This document shows positions 1,012 through 62,250 of a stretch of 64,000 bases of DNA, in pieces. Numbering within the stretch: the stretch's first letter is position 1; every line of letters begins with the position of its first letter. The translations under genes and the position numbers were made by a program. The notes below the pieces were generated by a model. The model saw only the letters and a program-made list of their open reading frames with translations. It was not told where the DNA came from and did no database searches. Where the stretch lies: positions 12,095,346 to 12,159,345 of the forward strand of contig CM055097.1 in the NCBI GenBank assembly GCA_029204225.1. The letters are read 5' to 3'. The DNA comes from Diphasiastrum complanatum. Taxonomy: Eukaryota; Streptophyta; Lycopodiopsida; Lycopodiales; Lycopodiaceae.

Positions 1012-2227
1012 TAAACCTGACGAAGATGCCAAGGCACCAACCGTGACCTCAAGGAGGACTATTGGAAATTAAGCCCACAGTTGTCTCCTTGGTGAATGAC
1101 TATTTCTATTTCAAAATTCTTCTTGCATGTTTATTGATCATTGATCTAGGGTCAGGTGAAACCAACTTTGGTTTTACGTCTGTTCACATCGGATACCTGC
1201 AGGAATCATAACTTAGACAACCAAATTATTTGAAGAACGTCTACAACGGACTTCTGACTAATTTCCAGCAAAGGGTAATCAATCCTATCATATTTCAAGT
1301 TCAAATGTTAAGTTCATCATCCACGCACAGTCTATGTGATGCTCCGTCCATGAGACGAATGATTTTGAGCCTCCCAGTTACGCCGTCATTCTACTTGTAA
1401 CTGTTATTTTGTTGTGCTTCAGTGTAATATAGTAGCAGCATGCTTTTCTATCTATGTATAACATAGATGAATGTTTGTTGTGATTTGAATGCACTTCATT
1501 GTTGTTCGATCACACTTGTTCACTCGTTCTGATCATAACATGGACGTCTACAAATCCTCAGCTTTTGATCAGACGATGGCTATCTTTGACACTTGAGAAA
1601 CTTGTGTTGTCATAATGTTCTTTCAATCTATTTCAGAACTAAACTTTTGATTAAATCCATTTTTCATTAATACCACACACAAACCATTTCTAATCTCTTT
1701 GGTGTATTGTACTTATTTTTGTTTTTGTGAGTATGAACTAATTTATAAGATCTTGTTGGGCAATAGAACACTTAAGCTGTAATTATAATTAGCATAAACA
1801 TTCCATTAGACTATTTTTGCATATAGCAGCCCATTGTAGCGGGAGAGTTGTTTTGCAAATATTCCTGCTCTCTTCTCCACTCGCGTTCTCCATACTCCCT
1901 TGCCTCGTCAGATTGAATGAGGAACATCATCTTGCATACAAAGCAACCATAAATAGAAAGGGCAAATGCATATTTCAAGGGAAATCAATCTAATTTCACA
2001 ACCATCTTAATTACCCACCCTTAAATCACACTCAAATAACTTGAGCCAAACGATTAAGGACCCTGAAGAGACTAATTGTAGAGAGAGGGGTGGAACACCC
2101 GCTCAACATACCGGTACCTTTGGTAATGAGAATATCTTTCTAGCTCATTATGAGAATGCCAACAATGATAGAATTGTGACCATAGGAACCATCCACGTAA
2201 TTGTGACCATCGAGTTGTGGCCATATA
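1012..2227. other. No recognisable feature
   Basis: AT-rich sequence without a credible reading frame. It may include the 3' LTR of the Copia element above, but I found no boundary or matching LTR copy to prove it. Confidence 0.3.
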
Positions 2228-2449
2228 ATGACAAACATAATTGTCGAAGCCAAACTCCCAAAGTATATTGAAAGATATAACTTATCATTGGCAATTGGAC
2301 TATTGGACCAGTTTCAACCAGAATATGATGAAAGGATACCATGTACATGCACACAATGCAAAGGCCTTAGGATTCGGACAAGGAGGATTGTCAATGATCA
2401 TATTAGGGCCAATGGAGTGCACAAAAGGATCCAAGAGTACGAGAGGTAA
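2228..2449 (+). pseudogene. CACTA-like transposase-associated domain fragment
   Basis: A 73-codon frame contains a C-T-C-x2-C cluster followed by an arginine-rich segment, RIRTRR, then an H and a G-V-H block about 15 residues on. This spacing resembles the N-terminal transposase-associated domain of En/Spm (CACTA) elements, where a Cys-rich knuckle precedes R.R..V..H....G. The rest of a transposase is missing and the following sequence shifts frame. Family assignment is by pattern only and could be wrong. Confidence 0.35.
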
Positions 2450-2503
2450 ACTCTTTAAAGTGTTCTTTGGAAATGCTTTAATATTTTACATGGAAACATT
2501 GCT

Positions 2504-2722
2504 GCATATATAAATAGTTCCATTGGCCACCCTTTGTTGACAAATTGTGATTTTGAAGAACGCACCAATGGAAAAGAAGAATATTTTACTAGGAATGTAA
2601 AGGGCACATATAAAATGATCTGTGCCACTAGATCTATCAAGGTTGGGGAGGAATTGTTCATCAAGTATAGTTTCAACCGTAATCTACCCAAATGTTTGCA
2701 GAGGACAATAAGTCAAATGTGA
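2504..2722 (+). pseudogene. SET-domain-like fragment
   Basis: The frame reads YINSSIGHPLLTNC, comparable to the SET-domain NHSC.PN motif (FINHSCDPNC type). About 30 residues later comes CATRSIKVGEELFIKYSF, matching the A.R.I..GEEL...Y.F block that closes SET domains. No N-terminal half or post-SET cysteines are visible. This is a fragment of a lysine-methyltransferase-like gene, perhaps carried by the transposon debris around it. The catalytic Tyr of the GEEL..Y block is present, but the NHS motif is degraded. Confidence 0.5.
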
Positions 2723-3023
2723 ATATTTAAATTTTGTTGATATGCAAAGATGTATAATTCATTCATTCTTGATTGTATTTGGTTTGTGTCATTAAATATG
2801 TCAAATGTTAGGAGCATTATTCGTCATTTGACTAGATATTTACATAAGATAATAAGTGAAAGCTAATGAATGTTAAATTTATAAATATGTAAATTTGTAG
2901 AAGCATGCAATTCTTTGAGTTCATTGAATGTTAACAAGTTGAAAAGAAGAATGGTCTAATAGATACACTAGTATGTTCATTACTTTTAAACAAAGAGGTA
3001 ATTAATATTCATATGCAACATTT

Positions 3024-3073
3024 AGATCTATCGAGTCTTGGGAGGAAATGTTTATCAAGCATTATTTCAACCT
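3024..3073 (+). repeat. Partial second copy of the SET-like block
   Basis: About 50 bases resemble 2634-2683 (agatctatc, then aaggttgg or gagtcttg, then ggaggaa, ttatcaag and tttcaacc). This suggests an old local duplication of the end of the SET-like fragment. Confidence 0.45.
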
Positions 3074-3153
3074 ACTTCTTGTTGTTTTGGTATATAGGAT
3101 TCTTCATCCTCATTTAGCGTTGGAGACAATAATTCTCGTAAAGGTCAACGTAG

Positions 3154-11260: not shown

Positions 11261-46761
<35,501 letters not shown>

Positions 46762-46869: not shown

Positions 46870-48429
46870 GAAGAGCAAGGCCCTCCAAGCTACCAAGGGG
46901 ATCAAGCTCGCAAACTCAAATAATAGCATGCGATCATCTACTAAAAAGGTGTCACAGTTACGAAAATGTAAATCATATTAACTAGATAGTAAAAATGTAC
47001 ACAGTACATGAGATTTTAGTCTTGAGATACTACTGCAGTTGTAACAAATATGCTTGAATGGTTTTGAAATATGCTTGATTGTGTGCACCTCAAGCAATTA
47101 GTCTAGTGAACTACTTCTTGCATGAAAATGATCTCACATCGATTCTATGTAATTTCTTAGCACACTTGGGGAATTATTATACATGAAAGGATCTCTCTCT
47201 CTCTCTCTTCAAAGTTCTTCATGAGTAAAGCAAAATAAATAATGGGTGCTATTAACTGATTATGATAAGCAGCTTCTAATAAAACACATCTGATTCTAAA
47301 TCAGAAATGGGAGATATTTTGAATTTTTTTTTTGTGTAAATCACCTATCTATTGTCAAATTTTTAGATTTTGTTAGTCATTTCAAAATCAATACAACCTC
47401 TTAAATAGGCTGTGACCTTTTGCCCACCTCATCACTTGCAATGACTTCATTATATTGTCATCACTTGCAATGACTTCATTATATTGTCAAAAGCCGACAA
47501 GGCCTATTCTTACTAAATGATATTCACTTATTAGTATATAATAATAGTGATTTAGTATTGTCTCCTAACTTTGAGAAGATTGCTTAATTTTTTGGGTACC
47601 AAATAATCTATGCATGCAATTTGAAAGAAATTGGCCATCATATCATAGACTAAATTCTTTATCAAATAAACCAAGTAGCATTTCTTGGCTATCAAAGTCA
47701 ACATTTTATTGGCTGAGGCAATATTTCTTATCAAATTTGGAATGGATTTTCTGATAGCAGCACGACTTTTTTGAATGAATACATTAGTGACAAAACAATA
47801 AAATATATGAGATATTTTTCTTCATGTTAATTTTCATACTTTGGCTTGAGATTTTTTGTCATGACATTTGTTATGGACACAATTTATTTAGGCTACCAAT
47901 GTTTCAGTGAGCATGCTTATTCTAGAGATTGATGCAAGGTCAAAGGTAATGCTATTTTCTATGGAAGAAGATATGATAAGATATAGCTTTGTCATTATCT
48001 TCTTTCCATTCGTGAAGTTCCTTGTATGTCCTAGTAGGCATCTCTTCGGTGCCGTCCACCCAGGGCCATAGCAATACTGTCTCAATTAATTTTGGACTTT
48101 CCTAAAATTTATTTTCAGAAATGGACTCGAGAATTTACAACACATCAAATTAAACATCTTTTTGATATATTTGATATTTTGATTCATCCATCTAAATTGG
48201 TATTATCTAACGATAAAAACATCGTTTAAATTGACAGTACTTTCAGTATAACTGGAACAACATGATGACTAGCATCTGAATATATTCAAACATCTTATGC
48301 GATATTTAACAAACATCTATCACAACTGATTTTAAATCTCACTTTCAAATGAAAATATTCAAACATCTTATGAGACATTCAACAAACATCACTACCGCCT
48401 GAGGCATTTACAGTGTATTGAAGTTGACA
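46870..48429. other. Intergenic, one short tandem duplication
   Basis: Nothing gene-like. A 29-bp unit (ATCACTTGCAATGACTTCAT plus TATATTGTC) is duplicated at 47431-47459 and 47460-47488. Confidence 0.5.
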
Positions 48430-49838
48430 TCGAGAGATTGAATGTGGATCAGCGAAAGATTTTCGACCGTGTAGTACATGAGCATGTTGTTTGGAGAGTG
48501 GGTGGAGTGTTTTTTGTAGATGGTCCGGGTGGTACATGCAAGACTCACCTTTATAGTGTCATATTGTCGTACATGCATGCACATGCATTGGTAGTTGCAT
48601 CGTGTGGGATTGTTGCATTGTTGATGAAAGGTGGTAGGACCGCACACTCTCGGTTTAAAATTCCTCTGACGGAATTGAATGAGAGCTCGACATGCAACAT
48701 TTCTAAGCAATCTGCATTAGGTATGCTTTTGATGGCATGTCGATTGATCATTTGGGATGAGGTTCCCATGGTGCCTAAGTATGCTATAGAGTGCATAGAT
48801 CGATCTCTGCGAGATATATTGAGTATCGACGCTCCATTTGGAGGAGTTCCAGTTGTTTTCGAGGGTGATTTTTGACAGATTCTACCAGTGGTATTGCGTG
48901 GAAGTCGGGCGCAGATTGTCAATGCTTTGCTGAAGTGTTCACATTTGTGGAAACACATGGAGGTGCATAAATTGACAAAGAACATGCGCGTCATGGGCGT
49001 GGAGGGATGAGCAGTTGAGGTTTGCAGCTGTTGAGTGTGGGAGATGGTCGTGAGCCCACATTCGTGCATCGTGATTTGGACCTGATTTCCCTGTCGGAGT
49101 GCATGTGTGTAAGGACGCGTGATGTGGGCAAATTGATTTCATTCACATTTTCTGATGTTGCGCGACATTTTAAGAATGTTGAGTTTTTGAGGAGTCGTGC
49201 AATATTGACCCCATTGAACAAAGATGTGGATGAGATCAATGTGAGGGTTGTTGAGCAGCTTCCGGGTGACGTTTTCACCTTTTATAGTGCCGATAGTGTT
49301 GTTGAGTGTGAGGGCTCTAATGTCCACCCTATAGAGTATTTGAACAACTTGCAACCAAGTGGGTGTCCTCCACATAAGTTGGTGTTGAAGATTAGGATGA
49401 TTGTGATGTTGTTACGATCGATAGCATCGCACAAGGGATTGTGCAATGGCACAAGATTGATCATCCTCAGATTGGGTAGACAGGTCATAGAGACAGAGAT
49501 AGTGACCGAGAAAAATATAGGGAGTAGAGTCCTTATTCCACGTATCCCTATAGTGCCAAGCGATTTGAACATACCATTTGAATTGCAGAGGGTCCAGTTT
49601 CCTATCAGAGCAGCATTTGCCATGACAATAAGCACAAGGGCAAACTATGGACACAATTGGATTGTATTTGCCTCGGCCTGTGTTTAGTCATGGGCAGCTG
49701 TATGTTGCACTTTTGAGAGTGCGAAATGCAGCAAGTCTTCGTGTGCTGATTATTGACAAGGACAATCGATTTACGGATGTGGATGGAGTGGCGAGGTACA
49801 CTCAAAACATTGTGTATTCAAAGGTGTTGTGGCAGTAA
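48430..49838 (+). pseudogene. Helitron PIF1-like helicase, C-terminal part
   Basis: Helicase motifs in order: LNVDQRKIFDRVV, Walker A as GPGGTCKTHL (Cys where Gly is expected in GTGKT), Walker B LIIWDEVPM, VFEGDF followed by TGA and QILPVV (the usual GGDFRQ.LPV), then after a frameshift near 49015 the C-terminal domain to GQLYVALLRVRN (motif VI, FSHGQLYVALSRV). Two stops and at least two frameshifts. Helitron helicases unwind DNA during rolling-circle transposition. This copy is inactive. Confidence 0.9.
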
Positions 49839-50465: not shown

Positions 50466-50480
50466 CAAATCTAATCCTCA

Positions 50481-50800
50481 TTAGAGAAGTTCTCAATATC
50501 AAAAAGACCCTTTGTAAAGATACTTTTATTTTTTTCTTTAGTTTCGACCGTCACCAGGCCCAATGAAAATGCACAGATTTGAAATCTACGTAACATAGTT
50601 CAAATTAGCTAAAAAATAAAAATGCAATATAGAAAACTTTGAAATTTGTGTCCGAGCAGCATGGACGTATCCCATTGGTTTCTTCTTCCTGCCCGACACG
50701 TGCTAATCTGCCCGATGTCAATACCTCAAGTTAAATTTACTTGACTATGCTGGTTAGTATAATGAGATTTTCTAACTATACTAGTTACAGTTATAGAAAT
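50481..50800 (+). promoter_or_regulatory. Upstream block shared by both gene A copies
   Basis: Starting at CATTAGAGAA, this region aligns with 61987-62250: a T-rich stretch, a CTACGTAACRTAG near-palindrome, an A-rich stretch, then GCAGCATG and ATTGGTT (50674-50680; an inverted CCAAT box) before a CTGCCC. Non-coding homology this far upstream means the two gene A copies arose by DNA-level duplication or transposition. Confidence 0.6.
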
Positions 50801-50943: not shown

Positions 50944-52312
50944 ATGGCAAGGAGACCCATATCTACAATCGAGTCTGTGATTCTTTACAATGAGAAAGAT
51001 GAAGCTGATAACTGGAAGCCAACAAAATATACGAAGAACTCATGGGTATTGGTGCATCCATCATCAAAGGGCAATTTTCGACAAAAGGAAAGAGCAAAAA
51101 TGACTTACAAATCTTATTGGAAAGCAAAAAATTTGGAGTTTAAGACTACCCTGAGAGGTCAATCTATATCAGAAGTCTTAGTACAACATGTATATATGCA
51201 TTCAGAAATCAAAGTACATGATATCCATCCTCATGATCATAAAAAATGTAATTGTAAGTATATCAAAACATATGCACTCTACAACAATCATAGGTGATTT
51301 TCTTTATTGATGCTCTTCAGATTATGACTTAAATGCTTCAACATTGTTTTTTTCTTTCAGATTTATACCCATCAGACATAAGTGAATGGGAGCCCGCACA
51401 ATCACTTGCAAAAATATTAGACGTGATTCACTCTGATGTTGGAAAGCTACAATACAGAGGAAGAAGTCCAAAGGAGCTTGCAGATTGTGGTATCTATTTT
51501 TATGAATATATATATATGCCACAGATGGAAGTTTTGGCAAGCTCGAAGCAAATCCATTGCCTGGTTTTCAAAGTGATGAGTGGCCTACTCTTGACAGCAT
51601 TGCTTCTAAATCCTTGAGATGCAAGCTACTCATTGATATTAGAAATGCTATGAAGATAAGCACAGGCTCGAAAATTGTTCACCTAAGTTGGTTTATCTCA
51701 TTACATATATTTGTTGATTTTTTCTCGAGTGCTAGTGTTTGTAGGACACCAACTTTATTTGTTTGCAAGGATTTATCAAATGAGACTTTGTCAGATCTCA
51801 TGGATCAAGGTTGGGATAGTAAAACAAATAATGACATAAAATACAGGATTAAAAAGTTCTCAATGATCTTTCGTTATCATATCAAAAAGCAAATGCTCAG
51901 TCTCACATTTAGCTACCAAAGATACAAGAAAATTGAAAGTACATGGCTACCACTGGATCAAGACTTTGAACTAAATGGTCACACAAACCGAATGGAGATA
52001 AACATTATCTACAATGAGGAATATTTGACTATGGTTGAGGTGGAAGAGCATTGGAAGTTTGATTTTATCAGAACAGAGCTCATGCTATTACAAACCAATC
52101 TATCAACATATTTCAGATTTATCATCAACGGAAGACTCGTAAGTACTTTATGTTTATTGCCATTTCAAAATAGAACAAAATCATAGAAAATGTCATCATT
52201 TACAATTGCACATTCACTAATATTTGCCATGTCACAGATGCGAAAAAGACATGAGCTGATAACGTGCTGCAAAGATCTACCTACAACAATCACCATTGTG
52301 GGAGAACAATAG
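50944..52312 (+). CDS. Gene A1: unknown three-exon protein with ubiquitin-like C-terminus
   Basis: Exons 50944-51253, 51361-52138 and 52238-52312, with consensus donors (GTAAGT twice) and T-rich acceptors. I do not recognise the family. Features are a conserved N-terminal block with KNSWVLVHPSSKG, a middle block LDVIHSDVGKLQYRGRSPKE, a segment with FFSSASVCRTPTLFVCKDLS, and a C-terminal 75 residues whose pattern (INIIYN...MVEV...W...FIRTEL..........FRFIINGRLV, then RKRHEL and TITIVGE) resembles a ubiquitin/PB1-type beta-grasp fold. That is inference. One frameshift lies near 51530, where the frame changes between YIYMPQ and FGKLEANPLPGF, so this copy may be inactive. The start Met is the only one near the conserved N-terminus. 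It converges on gene B, 209 bp away. Confidence 0.6.
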
Positions 52313-52521
52313 TTTCAGATAAACTTTAGTAAAAATATGTGTATACACTCTTTCATTCAATAAATGAAATCCCAAGTTGGGCATCAGTACATGTATTTTG
52401 TGCTCCCAAATTCATAAACTGGAGCAACATTTGATATATCAATGTATATTTTTCTATGAATTCTATATATGTACTTTTGTTCTATTCTATCTATATTTGT
52501 TTTGATCTTAATTTAGTATAA

Positions 52522-54269
52522 CTACATCAACCTTTGCACCATCATCAATAACGGAGGCTGAAGCCTTGCCCTAGCTAGTATACTCAAGATAATTTCTTGT
52601 CTAAATCTGTACACTTGGCTTGATGTGTACTCAGGAAGTGTAAACTGCAAAATAGAACAATCATGTATTAGTAATGGCCAAAAACATCAACAAAATAGAA
52701 AACTAATCATGATTCCAAAATAAAAATAAATAGAATTTATTATCTTAAAAATATCAACATCTTGTTGAAGGTTGAACCACTCAAAAAATAACTTTGCATT
52801 GTATAATGTGTACCACCCACAGCTGAATGAATCATTTTGCTGGGGTGACTGCAAAATAATTCAGCACACAAGAAATCAATTATGAAACAAAATGAATTAG
52901 AATGAAACAATTACATTAGAATACTGATTTCAAAATGCTGTTCAGAAAGACGGAGTTTACCTCCAAACTGACAATCTGCCAGTCCACGGGATGGGAAACA
53001 TCTGTATGAATATATTTACTTAGATATGGAAGGTATATATCTACATCCTTATGTGTATTTCTCATCGAATTCATCTTGACACAAAAACCTTTAATAATAT
53101 TATCTACAGATCTCTTAATAGAGATCAAGTTTAAACTCCAATGGTCACTGCAAAATAAGATTGAAATTTCTTTAGCTGCAATTCTGAGAACTATTTCCAT
53201 TGACAATGCCATGTTAATGCATAAAACATCAAGAAGCATTTAATATATTTTACTTCGTATGATAAGGGATGAGTAGATACTTTGTTGCTGGTGTGAATCC
53301 ACTTGTCAGACACTGTGACAATGTGTCATTATTCTCCTTGAAGGCTTGAAGCAGAAAGTTACTCAGCACCAGCAACTCATTGGATGAATCTCTTGCAATG
53401 TCATATTCCAAGAGTGTAAGCCCGGACTCTATCACATGATCATTTATAGAAGCCCGTCTGTCTTTGAGATCCAAGCAATCTAGAACTCTAAAATTAATAC
53501 TAAAATCAAGTTCATCTAGTCTAAAACAAAAAGGAGTACCAATTGTATCTATAGCATCAGATATGTATTTCTCAAATTTAAGATAATCATCCGAATCTAT
53601 ATATGTATAAAAATTTGGAGGAGGAGGAGGAGGTGGATGTGTAGTATCTACATGAATTAAAGGGGTATCCAAAACAGATGTAGCTATATTTACAACATTA
53701 TCAATAGCAGCATTATCTACAATGGATTCCGGGTTAGGCTTCACAGAATCTGTGGTGTCTACCCTCCTTACTTTCTTCGGAGCTCTCTTGGGGGCTGTCT
53801 GCTTTCTAGGACGTTTCGTAGGTAGATCAATCCTATCTAGAGGAGTTGGTCTAGGAGCAGCAGGCTGAGATATGTGTAACCTACAATACCTATCCCTCAT
53901 TCTCATCAGGAGCTGAAAATCCTTGGGCATTATGGTGACTCTCTTGGAATGGATTGCAAGGAAAAGAGAATCCTCAAAAAAAAGACTAATGTAATCTTCA
54001 GCAGCCTCCTGAAGGCACTAAAGAGCACTGGGTGTGAATTTAACTAGCTGTCTGAGATCATTTCTTGTTATGTTTTGGACAGCACGATAGAATGGAGCTC
54101 TTGGGATCAACAAAGCTGTTGATCTCTGATACTTGCGTATCTCAGAGAGCCACCTGCTGCGGTTGCGCGTTCTAGGTCTACCGGGTGGTGTAATGGCAAC
54201 CGCAGGGGCTGAGGATGAGCCATGAGAGAAGAAGTCCCTCCTTTTCTGCTTTCTCCTATCCATGGACAT
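52522..54269 (-). pseudogene. Gene B: histone H3/CENP-A-like domain fused to a Ulp1-like protease
   Basis: Four minus-strand exons, 54269-53254, 53147-52961, 52848-52759 and 52644-52522, join in phase to 472 codons. Residues 42-130 are an H3 fold: EIRKYQRSTALLIPRAPF (alpha-N), [17 protein letters not shown] (alpha-2), [15 protein letters not shown] (loop 2, alpha-3). Loop 1 is one residue longer than in canonical H3 and the N-tail lacks ARTKQ, so it is closer to a CENP-A type. A basic stretch (150-170, possible nuclear signal) and seven prolines follow. From about 245 to the end is a Ulp1/C48 domain: [24 protein letters not shown] with His341, QQNDSFSCGW with Gln405 and Cys411. The Asp of the usual DSM motif is Asn365. 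Ulp1 enzymes cut SUMO or related modifiers. Codon 84 (54020-54018) is TAG, inside the fold; everything else is open. Confidence 0.72.
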
Positions 54270-54855: not shown

Positions 54856-57099
54856 AATTTAGTATAAATGGCACAAAAACTAATTAATTTTTTTACCTTT
54901 TCCGTTCTCAAAATTCGTGGCATATCGCTCTTGTGCTTGCGCATTGTTGTCCGTTTGCTTGCAACGATACCTACCTACGCACTGTTAGCCAATATTTTTG
55001 CACGGAAAATCGGGCTAATATTGAAGTTTAAGTTTGCAATAATTGAAAAAATCGGCATGTAAAACCCGGTTATTAGAGAAAAATCGTCACAAATTTGCCT
55101 CGAAATTGGGTCCCAGCCCATCCTAAAGTGGCTAGACATAGTTTAAAAGTAAGAAATTGACTTTCGAAAAAACCATCAAAAATATTATGTGGTCAAGTTT
55201 TGTAAGACCAAGCCAAAAGTGCCGGTCCACCTAGAATTGGGTCCCAGCCCGTCCTAAATGAGGCTAGAGCAAATTTTGCGGCCTTAGAAATGGCCGGTAA
55301 ATATTTTACCGCTTTTCTAAAAAATGGCCAGTTGTAAAAAAATAGCCGGTATGACCGTGCTAAAATCTCACCATGTACTGAGTCCATTTTTACTAATATA
55401 TGATCACTCAGTGTATTTTTCAGAGAAACCGTGTTGTCGTGGGAGCCCTAGTCATGAATGCCGAAAAGTCAACCACAGAAGAAAAAATCGAGAAAGAAAA
55501 GTTTCGGGTAAAAACCGGACCGGGAAATATGGATTCAGTGTCAATAAGTCACAGAAACCCTAACGACAAAGTTTGGACAATTTACGGACAATTAACGAAA
55601 TGTGTGGGCCAAGTGGTTACCCAACATGCCAAAAACCCAAACAAATGAGCAGTAGGCACACGACCCTTGAAAAAATGAAGAAAGGCCAAAAATGAAGGTA
55701 CCCAAAGAAAAAATGAAAGTCGCCTACTAAAAATAGGGATTTAAAAAAGGCCTCACCCAAAATTTGGATAATAAATGCCAAACCACCTTGGAGGCTAAAA
55801 AGTTTGGGAGGTACACCCACTAGCCATTGACATTTTGGGCTTCTAGGGTGTACAAAAGGAGAAACTTGAATGGCCTCCCTAGCCTTTGACAAAAATGGCG
55901 TCTTGGCTAATTTTGGAAAAGAGCCTTGAATGCACCACTCCCCCACTCTCTTATAGAGGCCACTAGGTATACTATCAAATGGGTTGAGGACAAATGGCAA
56001 AGAGGGCTTGAAGGACATGAAGAATGGCAAGATGACATTGTGAAGGGGATGCATTGGATTTTCCTATCAGAAGGAGCCAACTCCTTGTATTTCAAATGTT
56101 AGTGTATTTGGATGTTAGTGCTTTTGTGAGTTAGTGTATTCGGATGTTAGTGCTTTTGTGATTTGATAATTTGATAGTTGGATGATGATATGATAGTTGG
56201 ATAATGGGATGATGTTGATAGTTGCTAAGTTGAGAGTGGAGAGTTTGATGAATTTGATGTGATAGTTTTGATGTGATGTTGGTTGAGAGTCTTTTTGATG
56301 AGAACTTGCTTGCTTGAGGATGCTTGGAAGTTAGTTCCATTTTGATATTAGTGATTGTGGATGTTGTTGCTCCATGTTAGAGTTCGCTATGGGAGTTGGT
56401 GGTTATTGCTTGAATCTCATCTCTAGTAGGAGTGCATCATGGAGTGTTTGATTTTGCATTGAGAAAAAAAGTGAGTACTTTTGAGTGCATTGAGTGGGTA
56501 ACGTCGAAGTTGGAGTGATTGCTTGTATGATTTGGTTGTGCATGGTAAGAAGGAAGTCTTTTGATTGATGATTGATTGAGGAATACCAAGGTTTTGCTAA
56601 TGGTTGAATGATGGAAGTAGGTTGATGGTGTTTGATTCTTGTAGTTGGATGATGGTGGATGGAAATTTAGTAATGCTTGTTTCCTACTTGGTTAGTTGAT
56701 TGAAGAGTCATTATTGGGTGATTAGGCTATTATTTCTCGCTTGGTTGGACTCTTGTTAGGATTCTTGTTTCAATACAAGAGTCATGACATTGGTTTTTGT
56801 GAACGAGATTGAAAGTGTTGGTTTGCCTGAGAAGAAAAGGGTGTGAGGGAATGAGTTTATAGGTAAATACTCGGAAAGACTTGTTTACCTATTGAGTTTT
56901 GATGTGAAGAAGGAGAGTGAAGCAGTGTAATGTGATGATAAGTCATTTTCGTAGTTGTGTGAGCACCACTAGTACATTTACTTAATCAAACAATGAGACA
57001 AAGACGACAAGCGATGAAAGGAACCATCGTTGGCCTCTGATCGCTACTCATAATATGCAAAGGAACTGTCAAGCCCTGTTTTCCATTTAAGATGACTCG

Positions 57100-57620
57100 A
57101 CGACTTGCACACTTGCTGTCTACGGCCCTGTACCCTCGTTGCATCTGTGGAGAGCTTGGAACAGCTCGTTGGAGGCTACCTTTGTGCGCTACCCTGCCTT
57201 TGTTCGCTGCTCCTGCAGATCTTGTTGCCTTACCTCTACCTGCAGCTCCTCGCTGCCTCACTTACTGCAATCTGCCTTGCTGGCCCTGCGATCTCCCCGC
57301 TACCTCTGCCTTCAGTGTGCTCTCTGGAGGTCTTTCTGCATGTCTGCCTGTCTGCCTCTGTTTGTTGCTCCTACAAGTGCTTGCTGCCTCACCTACCTCT
57401 GCCTCCGTTGCTTCACCTGCGATCTACCTGCAGTTGCTCGCTGCCTCACCTGCTGGCCCTGCGAACTGTCTGTTGCACTCCTCTGTGTGCTCGCTGGAGG
57501 GATTCCTGGCAGACTACTATAGCTCCTTGCTGCCCCATCAACTGCTTGCTGCCCTCAGCTGATCGCTACCTCATCGCTGTCATGTGCCCACCTGCCATCT
57601 ACCTTTTGTTTCTCCCTGTG
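57100..57620. repeat. CTGCCT-rich low-complexity tract
   Basis: Diverged repeats of GCTCGCTGCCTCACCTGC and CTGGCCCTGCGATCT. All three forward frames are open across much of it because the composition lacks stops, so open frames here mean nothing. Confidence 0.7.
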
Positions 57621-57843
57621 CATTGTCTGTCTGCTAACATCATTCCCAGTGGGCATTCATTACACTATGGAGAGCCCTTCTATGCAAAACGTTGTGAATC
57701 CTAGAGCATCCTATCATTGACAGAGAGAGCATAATGGAAACTCAAGGAGCATGAACTCCACCCTGTTGTCCAATGCTGGGTCAAGCCTATGAATCTAATT
57801 CAGTGACCATCACAGAATACCTCTACTATTTTCCAGCTAAGCT

Positions 57844-57911
57844 GAGCGCACCGCTATGGCGAATCCACCTTACCTTTGAGCGCACCGCTATGGCGAATCC
57901 ACCTTACCTTT
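57844..57911. repeat. Perfect 34-bp tandem duplication
   Basis: GAGCGCACCGCTATGGCGAA plus TCCACCTTACCTTT occurs twice with no mismatch. Confidence 0.95.
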
Positions 57912-58116
57912 GAGGCAGAGATCCAAGGCATTGTTGTTGCTAATTTTTAGCATTCTTCTATACTCGGCCATCATTCAAGCACCTACCCATCGCCTTCCAG
58001 GAAGCCATGCGAGACAGTAAAGGCAAAACGACCGGGACTTTGAGACATTCATGACTAAGGGGTTCTTACGGCAAACCAGCTACCTAACTATTCATTGAGG
58101 TAAGCGTTTACTTAAT

Positions 58117-58183
58117 CTATTTGCACTGTCTATTCATTTCAGTTTCATAACCTATTTGCACTGTCTATTCATTTCAGTTTCAT
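58117..58183. repeat. Perfect 35-bp-period tandem duplication
   Basis: CTATTTGCACTGTCTATTCA plus TTTCAGTTTCAT occurs twice. Confidence 0.95.
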
Positions 58184-59234
58184 GAAGTTCTGTTGGTCAA
58201 TCCCTTCGTAGTGTGATATTATAGCCTTAATCACTTGTGATTGGAGTGAGATTTTTGCAGATGTTCTAGTAAGGCAAGTTTTTAAGGGATCAAGTACATC
58301 GATTTAAAAGAACAAGTCATACAGATTGTGTTTTGTTACGATTGCCTTTTGAGGTTGTATTTATATAACCAAGTGAATACTTGAGAGCTTTTATAGTGAA
58401 TTTGTTTTAGCATTAATTCAAACTCAGTTCAGAATTGTAATATATTATAAACAAATGCGGCATGGCTAATTAGAACAATGAGTGCCTATTTCCAACTTGT
58501 CTAGTGAAAGTGTTACGTAAATAACTCTGTTTTGTACTGATTTAGAATGTGTTGTACGGAGAGAATTGTAGATTGAGTAGTTTATATTTTGCTGAGTTAG
58601 ATTTATTAAACGGCTATAAGGAATCGTCAAGTTTTGAAGCGTTTCTTCCGATTTGTCAATTATGAAGCGTGTCAACTGGACCCGACCTCTGTGAAACACC
58701 AGAGCGGGTTGTCCACCATCCGTGGTTGAAATACATCACCTTGGTTAAAGCGTCACACTAGTCACACCCGCCGTCGGTACTGTCTAGCGAAATACCTAGA
58801 CCTGACGGTCGGCAAAAATACTGCCGCTTAGCAAACAAAGCGGTGCATATAACTTGCACCCCACGAGCACATCATAAATAGTAAATCGGTTTCTAGCCCA
58901 TGTAAGATTTTTACTAACTGTAAGCCGAATTCAATGGGGAAAGAGATATTAGCAAGATCCTAACGCGAATTAGTGATCAAAAGTTTTACGGAAGTGTGAC
59001 CCTAGAAAGTGAATCATTGCAACCAAAAGTACTAGCACCCCCTCCTTGCAACCGTATCTCTGAGAGCCTAGAAAACTCTCATCGGTTGGAGAGCACGGGG
59101 CAATAGAGAAGGCCATCAGGGTTGGAAGTGGCAATTTCTCTATTGCTCACGTAGGGCCAAACCGTCATTAGAGGTGGGGCCCCTTGACCCTTTTAGGACG
59201 TTTTGGCTAGACCAACCCCCCATCAAAATAAAGA

Positions 59235-59336: not shown

Positions 59337-59456
59337 TTCACATTATTGCCATGGATCCTCACGAGATTCAGGCTTGAGTTCATTTCTTAGTGAATTTGGG
59401 ATTACTGAAACCTAGACTACTTCCACAGCCTATTCAGGACATATCTACATGTTTTC

Positions 59457-60852
59457 ATGATTGCACAACCAAATTTCGATGTATTTTATGAACATTATGT
59501 TAGATTCAGAGATATACTTAGTAAGCCTGTTTTCTCCATAAGTCCACTCCAGTACATGCATTATACTGATTTTGTTCATTTCTTCCCAACTTTCAGACAT
59601 AGACTGGATAGAATGTTCACCAAATTGTTTGATCTTTTCAAAAGCAGTTCAATGTGTCCGTATTGCAACAAGAAATGTCGATTGGTTGAATATCAAAGTG
59701 GTTTCATACTTTTCCTATTAGTTCAGATCTCAGATGATGAGCAAGTTTCTGTTGCTGACCCTCCTTTTGCATCATCCTCTGTTCAATCAGCTATTAAGGA
59801 TATCAGTCACTTTCTTATCGACACTCCTGATAAGGAAAGTGACTTTATTGATGTAAATACTGATGTTCTTCGAGATTCTTTTATTGGCCAAAATACATCT
59901 GATGATGAATCCAACCCTATAGAAGAGTCGAAATGTCTTTTCAATTTTTATGTACATTATATTAATGACGATTATATTTTACTACTGCTGATTTATGTAA
60001 ATTTTTTGACTATTGTGAAGACGAGGTTCTATGTTTATTATCCAGTACAATTTTCGAATTCTCCGACTTTGTAGATTTTGAAACAGATGACCTTGTTGGT
60101 GGTATTGATTTTGATGATGAGGAGGGACTTATGACCAGTGAAGAATGCCTGACTAAGACTTTATCAAATATAGGTGAGGATGGGCGAGGTAGACCTTCCG
60201 ATGAAGAATTCACGGCATTTCAATCCCAGATGGGCTTTCCTCGTCCATCATTAATGCATTTCACTGATGATTCCCCTTCAGTACGTGGTCATTATATTGA
60301 TCATCCTAATTTGGTTGTTGTTGATGATGAAGAATGTGTAAGTGTTTAAACTTCCTTGCATTAGAATGTTTTTAATCACTAAATGTGTTTTTGTTAACAT
60401 ATTTCCTATTGCAGGATGCTCTCATAATAGATGATTTTGCTGCAAGACGAGGTGGTTTCAGACAACACGCATCCTCGTTCCAGAGGGGCAATGGACTGGG
60501 CCGCTATCTTAGCCATTTTTAGAAGAATGAGATCTATATTGCTCATTCCAAGCTGAGCCCAGTTGGGGAGAGTCTTATAATGGCAGTGAAAGCTTTATCA
60601 TTTTACCTAGGAGGACGTAAATTTGTTAAGACAAATGGGATCATTTTTGTCAAAAGATCTTATGTTATGAAAATTTTAGGCTTTACTGATGGAAATGTTC
60701 CTTTAAGGAGCTCCCATTATTCATTGGATTCCACTTATATTGAGCTTAGTGGAAATAAGGATAATGCACATCTATTAGATGCATATGCTAGCAAAGAATT
60801 TCTTCATGACAATACTGCCATAGAATCTGACACAAGATCTGATGATGAATAG
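59457..60852 (+). pseudogene. Gene C: acidic two-exon protein, unknown
   Basis: Starts ATG at 59457. Exon 1 runs to 60337 (donor GTAAGT) and exon 2 from 60415 (acceptor attgcag) to the stop at 60852. The N-terminus has a CPYCNKKC cysteine cluster. The middle is strongly acidic (SDDEQ, DFETDD, DFDDEEG, VVVDDEE). The C-terminal part is the most protein-like, with SPVGESLIMAVKALSFYLGG and RSYVMKILGFTDGN. Lesions are a frame change near 59970 and a TAG at 60520-60522. I recognise no family. It converges on gene D about 0.2 kb away. Its promoter shares motifs with gene B, so the two probably belong to one element. Confidence 0.5.
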
Positions 60853-61065
60853 CTGACACTTTGTATTTTGGTATAATACAATCGATACATATACATTGAA
60901 TATTTCTCCTCTCTTGTTCAATGAATTTGCAAAGCAATTCTGAACATGTCATGATTTGATGACAATGATGATCTTCTACTCAACAATCATCTAACTTTCT
61001 CTTCCTGTATAAACTTGCATGTTTTTTTAAACTTGTTGTATTGTGTGGACTTTGTTATATGTCGA

Positions 61066-61989
61066 ATCTGAACTCTGCGGTAGAACCACTGAAACGATTG
61101 ACAACTGTAGTTTCATTTTTCATTGGTTCCTTGATGTTGTGTATTTCGATGAAATGATGCTCGTGCTTGCCAGTGTGACTTCTCCATCCCTTGTGATGAC
61201 CATACACTCAAGCTTCCATATGTATTTGCAAAAAATTTGTATGATCTCTTAGTATGTGCTGCATATGTCAAAATCATAATGTTAGTCTTATGTTTGGATC
61301 TAAATATATATGAAAATTTGAAAGCATTTTAAAAATTTTATACTAACCATGTAATGAGTGATGTGATCTTCTCTCCATGCTTTTGATACTGCATTAACAA
61401 ACTCGACACAAGTCCTTTGGACAACTTTCTTATCAATATCAGAGTATTTTTTTCTTCTTAAAATAGCAATCATACTATCAAGCTTTTTCCATACATCATT
61501 TTTTAGTACTCTGGTTTTGCCGTCTTTCTCGAAGTCCTGAGTGACAACAATAATATCTGTCTAGACTGAGTCTTGAATATTAGAAGCCTTACCAGTATGA
61601 TTTGATAGGAAACGACGTGCTTTTGCTCCTCCTATGCTTGGCTTAGTTGGCATGTTCCCATTCTTTCTTGAAAGCTTTTCATCTTTATGAATTTTGACAT
61701 GTCCTTTATGGAGTCTTGCTTTTGATAAAACATCTTCTAATCGAGAGATAGCTTCCTTTGCTAATGATGCTGGCTTAGTATTCCAAGCAAAAACTATATG
61801 AAGATAAATGATCCTTTCTATTAATCTAACTTATGCATGAAGAGTGCAAACATGCACATTTTTTAAGGGGATAGGCAGCACAGACTTCCAGTTTGAATTT
61901 GCATATTCTCTAGTAATTCCTGTACTCCTAGTTATATCTTTTGCCATTTTCATGCAGTACAAACAAGGGCGTTTTGATATAGCACCGCA
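61066..61989 (-). pseudogene. Gene D: mobile-element-type protein fragment
   Basis: Minus strand. Exon 61989-61348 opens with a Cys-x2-Cys (RPCLYCMKMAKD), then HVCTLHA..RLIERIIYLHI, and ends DHITHYM at a GTTAGT donor. The next exon, from 61258 (acceptor tatgcag), continues HILRDHTNFL, and after a one-base shift YGSLSVWSSQGMEKSHWQAR and FHRNTQHQG. The HIL..H...FL..YG.L..WS.QG.EK..H pattern recalls, from memory, an uncharacterised repeated protein family of animals, fungi and algae that I suspect is transposase-related. In-frame stops at about 61836-61838 and 61555-61557 show decay. Its start lies about 0.35 kb from gene A2, head to head. Confidence 0.5.
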
Positions 61990-62250
61990 TTAGAGAAACT
62001 TAGAGCCCGACGAGGGCCTTTGAAAAAGATGCTTTTTTATTTATTTTTCTTATTTTCGTTGCCATGTGGACCAATTGAAACCTTAGCTTCGGGGTTCTAC
62101 GTAACGTAGAATTTTTCAAATATAAATAAAATAAAAACTTTTTAAATATATTGTTGTTTCATCGGGCAGCATGTGGAAATGCTATTGGTTGATGAGGCCT
62201 GCCCTTCCAGCTCATCACTGTCCGAAGAGACCCAAAAATATTGAAAATGA
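61987..62250 (+). promoter_or_regulatory. Gene A2 upstream block
   Basis: Counterpart of 50481-50800: CATTAGAGAAAC, T-rich stretch, CTACGTAACGTAG, A/T-rich stretch, GCAGCATG, ATTGGTT (62184-62190) and GCCTGCCC in the same order. It is also the shared upstream region with gene D. Confidence 0.6.

Follow-up and report, generated by a model that had tools for sequence, protein, structure and literature searches.

The window analysed here, a 64,000-nucleotide stretch of Diphasiastrum complanatum contig CM055097.1, holds on its minus strand a four-exon gene that joins a histone H3 core, through a basic and proline-rich linker, to a C48 (Ulp1-type) protease, and which we call H3-C48. The gene sits in a repeated element with inverted repeats, and the transposon association that the initial annotation had raised as a possibility is thereby borne out. 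The element belongs to what we term family 1, and it is interrupted in the window by an element of a related family 3; other loci of the same genome are given L numbers and contigs C numbers. In window numbering, the features are as follows.

48336-49838, plus strand: PIF1-like helicase (Pif1_2B domain, 1.6e-14; Walker motif by eye)
50479..50513, plus strand: right terminal inverted repeat of the family-1 element (CATTAGAG...); window homology to L015, L022, and L027 stops at 50477-50479
50944..52312 (ends approximate), plus strand: accessory gene orfB, with at least two exons, convergent to H3-C48
54269-52508, minus strand: H3-C48 gene as a whole, four exons
52508..52644, minus strand: H3-C48 exon 4, C-terminal tail; frame broken in the window copy (seven-copy alignment)
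52744..52848, minus strand: H3-C48 exon 3, with the C48 oxyanion Gln405 and nucleophile Cys411
52961..53147, minus strand: H3-C48 exon 2, with the catalytic His341 and, near the usual Asp, Asn365 in KMNS
53254..54263, minus strand: H3-C48 exon 1, with a tail remnant (MDRRKQ), the H3 core, the basic and Pro-rich linker, and the N-terminal half of the C48 domain
54018..54020, minus strand: in-frame TAG inside the H3 core (window translation), marking a pseudogene
54983..59234, no strand assigned: foreign insertion of 4.25 kb in the element; L015, L022, L026, and L027 are continuous here and lack it
59351..60852 (ends approximate, by eye), plus strand: accessory gene ORF-C, with an early stop in the window copy
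61002..61987, minus strand: 3' part of the DDE-like transposase gene, cut by the nested element (61002 is only the start of the searched piece)
61988..62142, plus strand: terminus of the nested family-3 element (CATTAGAGAAAC...); junction seen, 85% match to a stretch in L002/L003
62472..63652, plus strand: orfB of the nested family-3 element (tblastn and translation)
66068-64308, minus strand, beyond the window in L035: degenerate H3-C48 gene of the nested family-3 element (translation)

The four-exon gene described in the initial annotation is confirmed in its domains, linker, and exons on the minus strand, but the copy in the window is broken. The window gene is numbered from its first ATG (54269), and the start in its relatives is the second (54263); counting from the first, His341, Gln405, and Cys411 stand where they had been placed, and the junction between exons 1 and 2 (53254|53147) is indeed in phase, giving N-D-H-W, with an exon 2 acceptor that reads TTTTGCAG|TG in the seven-copy alignment. 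The Pfam check that had been proposed for the translated exons matched both Histone and Peptidase_C48: the window H3 was recovered in two pieces (2.5e-9 and 2e-10) and the protease from the joined exons (1.7e-9; 38.3 bits against a cut-off of 20.7), while the exon 3 frame by itself fell just below that cut-off (4.4e-4; 20.6 bits). The codon that is TAG in the H3 core of the window is open in the six other aligned family-1 copies; a stop also occurs at this position in a degenerate L028 copy. In the seven-copy alignment the window copy also has no GT at the intron-3 donor, after exon 3, and a frameshift in exon 4. Because of these three lesions the window copy cannot make a protein as drawn, and it is a dead transposon gene.

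Two other copies, L015 and L022, are uninterrupted, and each encodes 470 amino acids in four exons that are all in frame and flanked by consensus-like splice sites. In the L015 protein, Pfam Histone (PF00125) matches residues 27-123 (1e-27; 97.3 bits; cut-off 26.4; profile positions 27-122 of 122) and Peptidase_C48 (PF02902) matches residues 316-442 (1.1e-10; 42.2 bits; cut-off 20.7); the corresponding values for L022 are 8.7e-27 and 5.4e-10. A PDB sequence search with the C-terminal part recovered the Ulp1-like proteases 6dg4 (1.1e-3) and 1euv (1.5e-3) as well as SENP2 (0.011). A single-sequence AlphaFold2 model of exon 1 had a mean pLDDT of 34.9 and was hence not used. As in the Ulp1/SENP SUMO proteases, the His, Gln, and Cys motifs occur in order, and the three catalytic residues are present in both uninterrupted copies; unlike those enzymes, H3-C48 has a histone at its N terminus and an Asn near the usual Asp. 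This Asn lies in KMNS (MMNS in L020) in all six family-1 copies with exon 2, although the PDB comparison does not fix which residue faces the His; L027 is without exon 2, and the degenerate copy in L028 reads KMNF in the same segment. Active Ulp1 enzymes have an Asp in this segment, and because an Asn stands there in H3-C48, catalysis may be altered or absent. DeSUMOylation by H3-C48 is a plausible prediction.

To place the gene in its genome we searched the window's own assembly (1.74 Gb) with the Histone profile, which gave 6,325 first-look candidates, 150 of them scored, and at least 153 matches. Among the matches listed, 13 scored about 164 bits, like canonical H3, and the others 110 bits or less, with open frames of up to 417 amino acids at the noncanonical loci. 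Twenty of these noncanonical loci were compared with the window gene: six (L015, L016, L020, L022, L026, and L027) are 82 to 86% identical to it in exon 1, L028 holds two more divergent copies, and the remaining 13 belong to a more distant family 2. With exon 1 of L022 as the query, all 122 places scored (of 9,691 first-look candidates) were collinear for H3, linker, and the start of C48, over at least 311 of 328 residues and at 81 to 100% identity. Chance is excluded because every scored match has this arrangement. Stops interrupt exon 1 in 100 of the 122 copies, and in the 22 without stops H3, linker, and half of the C48 domain are read in a single open frame, which rules out two neighbouring genes wrongly joined and upholds the earlier contention that the fusion is no such artefact. 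Further loci with both domains in one frame, which had been named as potential support, proved to be numerous, both among these exon-1 matches and in family 3. We regard the fusion and its residence in a transposon as near certain.

The decay of these copies has a distinct pattern. Tallied by hand, the 192 stop codons in the 122 places comprise 162 TAG, 19 TAA, and 11 TGA, and exon 1 of L022 has 8 CAG, 3 CAA, no CGA, and 1 TGG codons, so that there are about 20 TAG per CAG versus 6 TAA per CAA. Because the TAG excess fits the decay of methylated CAG (CHG) to TAG, the copies look silenced. For the parts of exon 1, simple pairwise counts over seven copies, with stop codons skipped and pairs that are not independent, gave mean dN/dS values of 0.20 for the H3 core, 0.45 for the N-terminal half of C48, and 0.55 for the linker; between two subgroups the values were 0.16, 0.40, and 0.48. 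Exon 1 is under purifying selection, which is strongest in H3.

Comparison of the copies at the DNA level showed a family-1 element of ∼9.3 kb (9,308 bp in L022) that has at its two ends inverted repeats of ∼35 bp, CATTAGAGGAGTTCTCAATATCAAAAAGACCCTTT. A 31-nucleotide piece of the terminus had 1185 + 1261 = 2,446 genome matches at up to 3 mismatches (reversed-pattern control, 0), and the exact 70-nucleotide left terminus occurred 127 times (control, 0). We looked inward from 100 of these 127 left ends, using 110 of the 122 exon-1 places, and met an H3-C48 exon 1 within 12 kb at 16 of them (median distance, 5,619 bp), with the strand of end and gene agreeing in 15. On contig C1, 28 of 99 exact termini lie in about 1.8 Mb (64.97-66.68 Mb) and another 27 in 95.0-100.7 Mb, with irregular spacing in both stretches.

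When H3-C48 is taken as the plus strand, the gene order is a transposase-like gene, ORF-C on the opposite strand, H3-C48, and orfB, again on the opposite strand. The transposase-like gene has D, D, and E-like motifs, picked by eye (LDESEI; GDLKTLKCMY..CLYC; SSQGMEKSH), that are conserved between families 1 and 2, and it is itself interrupted in L022. Its pieces have no meaningful Pfam match at E values up to 1 and no PDB match; KDZ, MULE, and other named transposases were set aside on the same Pfam result, with no MULE profile among the matches. Pieces of orfB are 86 to 90% identical at the amino acid level in L015, L020, L022, and L027 (70% for one further L020 piece) and about 28 to 37% identical in family-2 loci, while the ORF-C region has about 90 to 92% DNA identity to five other copies; neither accessory gene matched a Pfam family over its cut-off. 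One of six end pairs has a 3-bp target-site duplication (TCA), and none was seen in the other five. The element is a DNA transposon with inverted repeats, presumably of the cut-and-paste kind.

In the window this element lies reversed, carries the 4.25-kb insertion, and is cut at 61988 by the second, related element; the 3' part of its transposase gene has 93 to 94% DNA identity to positions 2177-3078 of the L022 element. The insertion itself shows no clear inverted or long terminal repeats. The PIF1-like helicase was considered as part of the element and rejected, with no match in 28 other loci compared, and is probably a Helitron remnant adjoining it. Elsewhere in the window, long retroelement frames were recognised by eye at 19501-24030 (minus strand) and 33468-41829 (plus strand), with Ty1/copia-like ones and three long ones that together encode a Ty3-like polyprotein.

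Three families of these elements were found through the H3 search, a route that families without H3 would escape. The fusion recurs in family 3, whose H3 core is 59 to 64% identical to that of family 1 (64% between L015 and the MARTESTAR copy in L028). All 134 family-3 places scored (of 8,594 candidates) match H3, linker, and the first C48-like residues, 20 of them without a stop. The full family-3 protease is seen in one degenerate copy only, that in L035, where H3, linker, C48 start, an HWSL exon, a QQND..C exon, and a last exon follow one another in the order and with the junctions of family 1, amid stops and frame breaks. Compared with the window exons, exon 3 of this copy is 73% identical (1.8e-15) and exon 4 is 68% identical (1e-5), and exon 2 matches weakly (0.004); of the degenerate family-3 protease pieces, one scored 12.8 bits (E, 0.1), under the Pfam C48 cut-off, and the other had no match.

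Family 2, to which 13 of the 20 compared loci belong, has a transposase 43 to 44% identical to that of family 1 over two segments, and its H3 forms the end of a Pro/Ser-Arg-rich protein. Its loci keep the transposase, orfB, and H3, and they gave no match to the C48 exons. The N-terminal tails also differ among families: family 1 has only MDRRKQTRR and family 3 has MARTESTAR (L028), and upstream of the family-2 core ARTKQTAR is exact in 5 of 13 copies, present with one change in 3, and not found in 5. Tail and core share a single stop-free frame in L009 only; in L011, L012, L017, and L025 they also share a frame, but one with stops, and in L010, L013, and L014 their frames differ. In L009, L010, L011, L012, and L017, ARTKQTAR is followed by a Ser-Arg- and Pro-rich stretch and then by the H3 core. 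The presence of this tail in family 2 points to the capture of an ordinary H3.

The initial annotation had described the histone fold as CENP-A-like and had raised targeting to centromeres. The H3 core of L015 is 53% identical to host H3, 52% identical to an Arabidopsis CENH3, and 45% identical to the CENP-A core, taken from the chimaeric PDB chain 7by0; because the first two values are so close, identity cannot tell H3 from plant CENH3, and with nothing that points to CENP-A specifically the description is not supported. Loop 1, compared with H3, is longer by one residue in family 1, unchanged in family 3, and longer by two in CENP-A, and a nine-row tree places families 1 and 3 together (97/92), apart from H3, CENH3, and CENP-A. 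The protein resembles canonical plant H3 in its core histone fold, its KRVTIMPKD segment, and its tail remnant, to which the intact tail of some family-2 copies can be added, and differs from it in a core identity of about 50%, a changed tail, a long linker, and the C48 domain behind. In the alignment it keeps what we take to be H113, D123, L126, and R129 (H3 numbering) of the H3-H3' interface. Every one of the 24 long contigs carries copies of the gene (105 of 122 places, the others being on small contigs), and the 100 young left ends listed are mostly dispersed over 20 of the first 21 contigs, with none on C11 and with a few small groups, for example four at C3:57.6-57.9 Mb. Centromere targeting thus finds no support in the contig spread of genes or of young ends.

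Transposon-borne H3, in fungal hAT elements, and transposon-borne Ulp1, in KIU/VANDAL elements, are each already known, and no description of an H3-Ulp1 fusion was found in the open-access literature searched. The KIU (Kaonashi)/VANC genes of VANDAL Mutator-like elements resemble the present case in that multigene plant DNA transposons have captured a Ulp1/C48 domain (PMC13317346; PMC6117577). According to a review, VANDAL elements with a Ulp1 domain in a VANC-type gene (KIU) lower the methylation of their own kind, and the role of that domain is called unknown (PMC13317346); another paper relays the opinion that SUMO is an unlikely target for KIUs (PMC6117577, in part). The review classes these elements as non-TIR MULEs and does not contain the word histone, in contrast to the ∼35-bp inverted repeats, the transposase without a Pfam match, and the H3 found here (PMC13317346). 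In Dothideomycetes, a DNA transposon of ∼9.5 kb of the hAT type has captured histone H3 and been amplified to hundreds of copies, and a comparable capture in Pyrenophora tritici-repentis has yielded many copies that are potentially active; the Pseudocercospora versions are mostly truncated and inactivated by RIP, and the hAT transposase is associated with 8-bp duplications (PMC6710886, in part). These elements are of similar length and likewise carry an amplified H3, but the sections available mention no protease, whereas the H3 described here is under selection and fused to C48 (PMC6710886). A scan of viral contigs with the 470-amino-acid protein recovered no relative; because such a scan reaches close relatives only, this negative says little on origin.

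The fusion, together with the signs of selection on it, suggests that the transposon uses H3-C48 to deal with host chromatin. H3-C48 belongs, as an accessory gene, to a high-copy DNA transposon. The reading toward which we lean, tentatively, is that its product, a protease addressed by its H3 part, counters silencing. An ancestral element would have captured a host histone H3 gene together with its tail; two of the three families carry this H3 joined to a Ulp1-type (C48) protease. The H3 part would pair with H4 or with histone chaperones and so bring H3-C48 onto chromatin. There its protease part may strip silencing factors, or nucleosomes of the element, of SUMO or a related modifier, and such removal would keep the element transcribed and mobile. 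The collinear copies, the recurrence in family 3, the purifying selection, the retained H3-H3' interface residues, the H3 tail of some family-2 copies, and the TAG-rich decay speak for this reading. VANDAL elements with a Ulp1 domain are a plant precedent for it, though a weak one on the part played by that domain. The Asn near the usual Asp, the H3 of family 2 without a protease, the full family-3 protease in a single degenerate copy, and the target-site duplication in one of six end pairs weigh against it. A broader statement seems to us possible but rather unlikely as a whole: that these elements form an unnamed, large superfamily of plant DNA transposons, with three divergent families that encode H3 and two in which an H3-tethered Ulp1-type protease loads into or mimics the nucleosomes of the element and strips SUMO-type silencing marks, so that the transposon would encode its own editor of chromatin.

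Other functions could account for part of the same evidence. H3-C48 might serve transposition itself, with H3 holding target nucleosomes or packing the element's DNA and the protease maturing or disassembling the complex; the fixed distance of the gene from the transposase-side terminus in many copies and the concentration of constraint on H3 would suit this idea, which we consider unlikely, though a serious candidate, given that family 2 retains transposase, orfB, and H3 yet shows no C48 and that no sharp genome-wide insertion preference was seen. The Asn near the usual Asp in all six aligned copies with exon 2, the ARTKQTAR of 5 of 13 family-2 copies, and the status of H3 as the most conserved part would fit an inactive protease and a protein that acts only as a decoy H3, mimicking tail and fold to titrate H4, chaperones, or H3-tail enzymes. 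That explanation appears distinctly improbable when set against the retention of the catalytic His, Gln, and Cys in L015 and L022 and the purifying selection on the N-terminal half of C48.

Passive capture, in which pieces of host H3 and protease were swept up and amplified without function, is disfavoured, and we judge it very improbable: dN/dS is well below 1, uninterrupted copies exist, and the architecture and junctions are common to a family only 59 to 64% identical in the H3 core, even though 100 of 122 scored copies carry stops and the fungal hAT elements offer a precedent with an H3 killed by RIP (PMC6710886, in part). The least probable of the alternatives, and one to which we give little credence, is that a CENP-A-like domain steers the element to centromeres. 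The 28 exact termini within 1.8 Mb of C1 would be in keeping with it, as would an identity to Arabidopsis CENH3 as high as that to host H3; against it stand the low identity to the CENP-A core, the canonical H3 tail kept by the related family 2, and the mostly dispersed genes and young ends.

That transposons acquire single host genes is familiar; in the present case a DNA transposon has apparently retained, under selection and in divergent families, a fusion of H3 to a SUMO-protease-like domain. For the annotation of this genome the finding is also a warning, in that many of its matches to "histone H3" sit in transposons. Should H3-C48 act on chromatin, the transposon would have in it a means of opposing silencing directly, and the control of plant transposons by SUMO and histone variants would become testable with a single protein.
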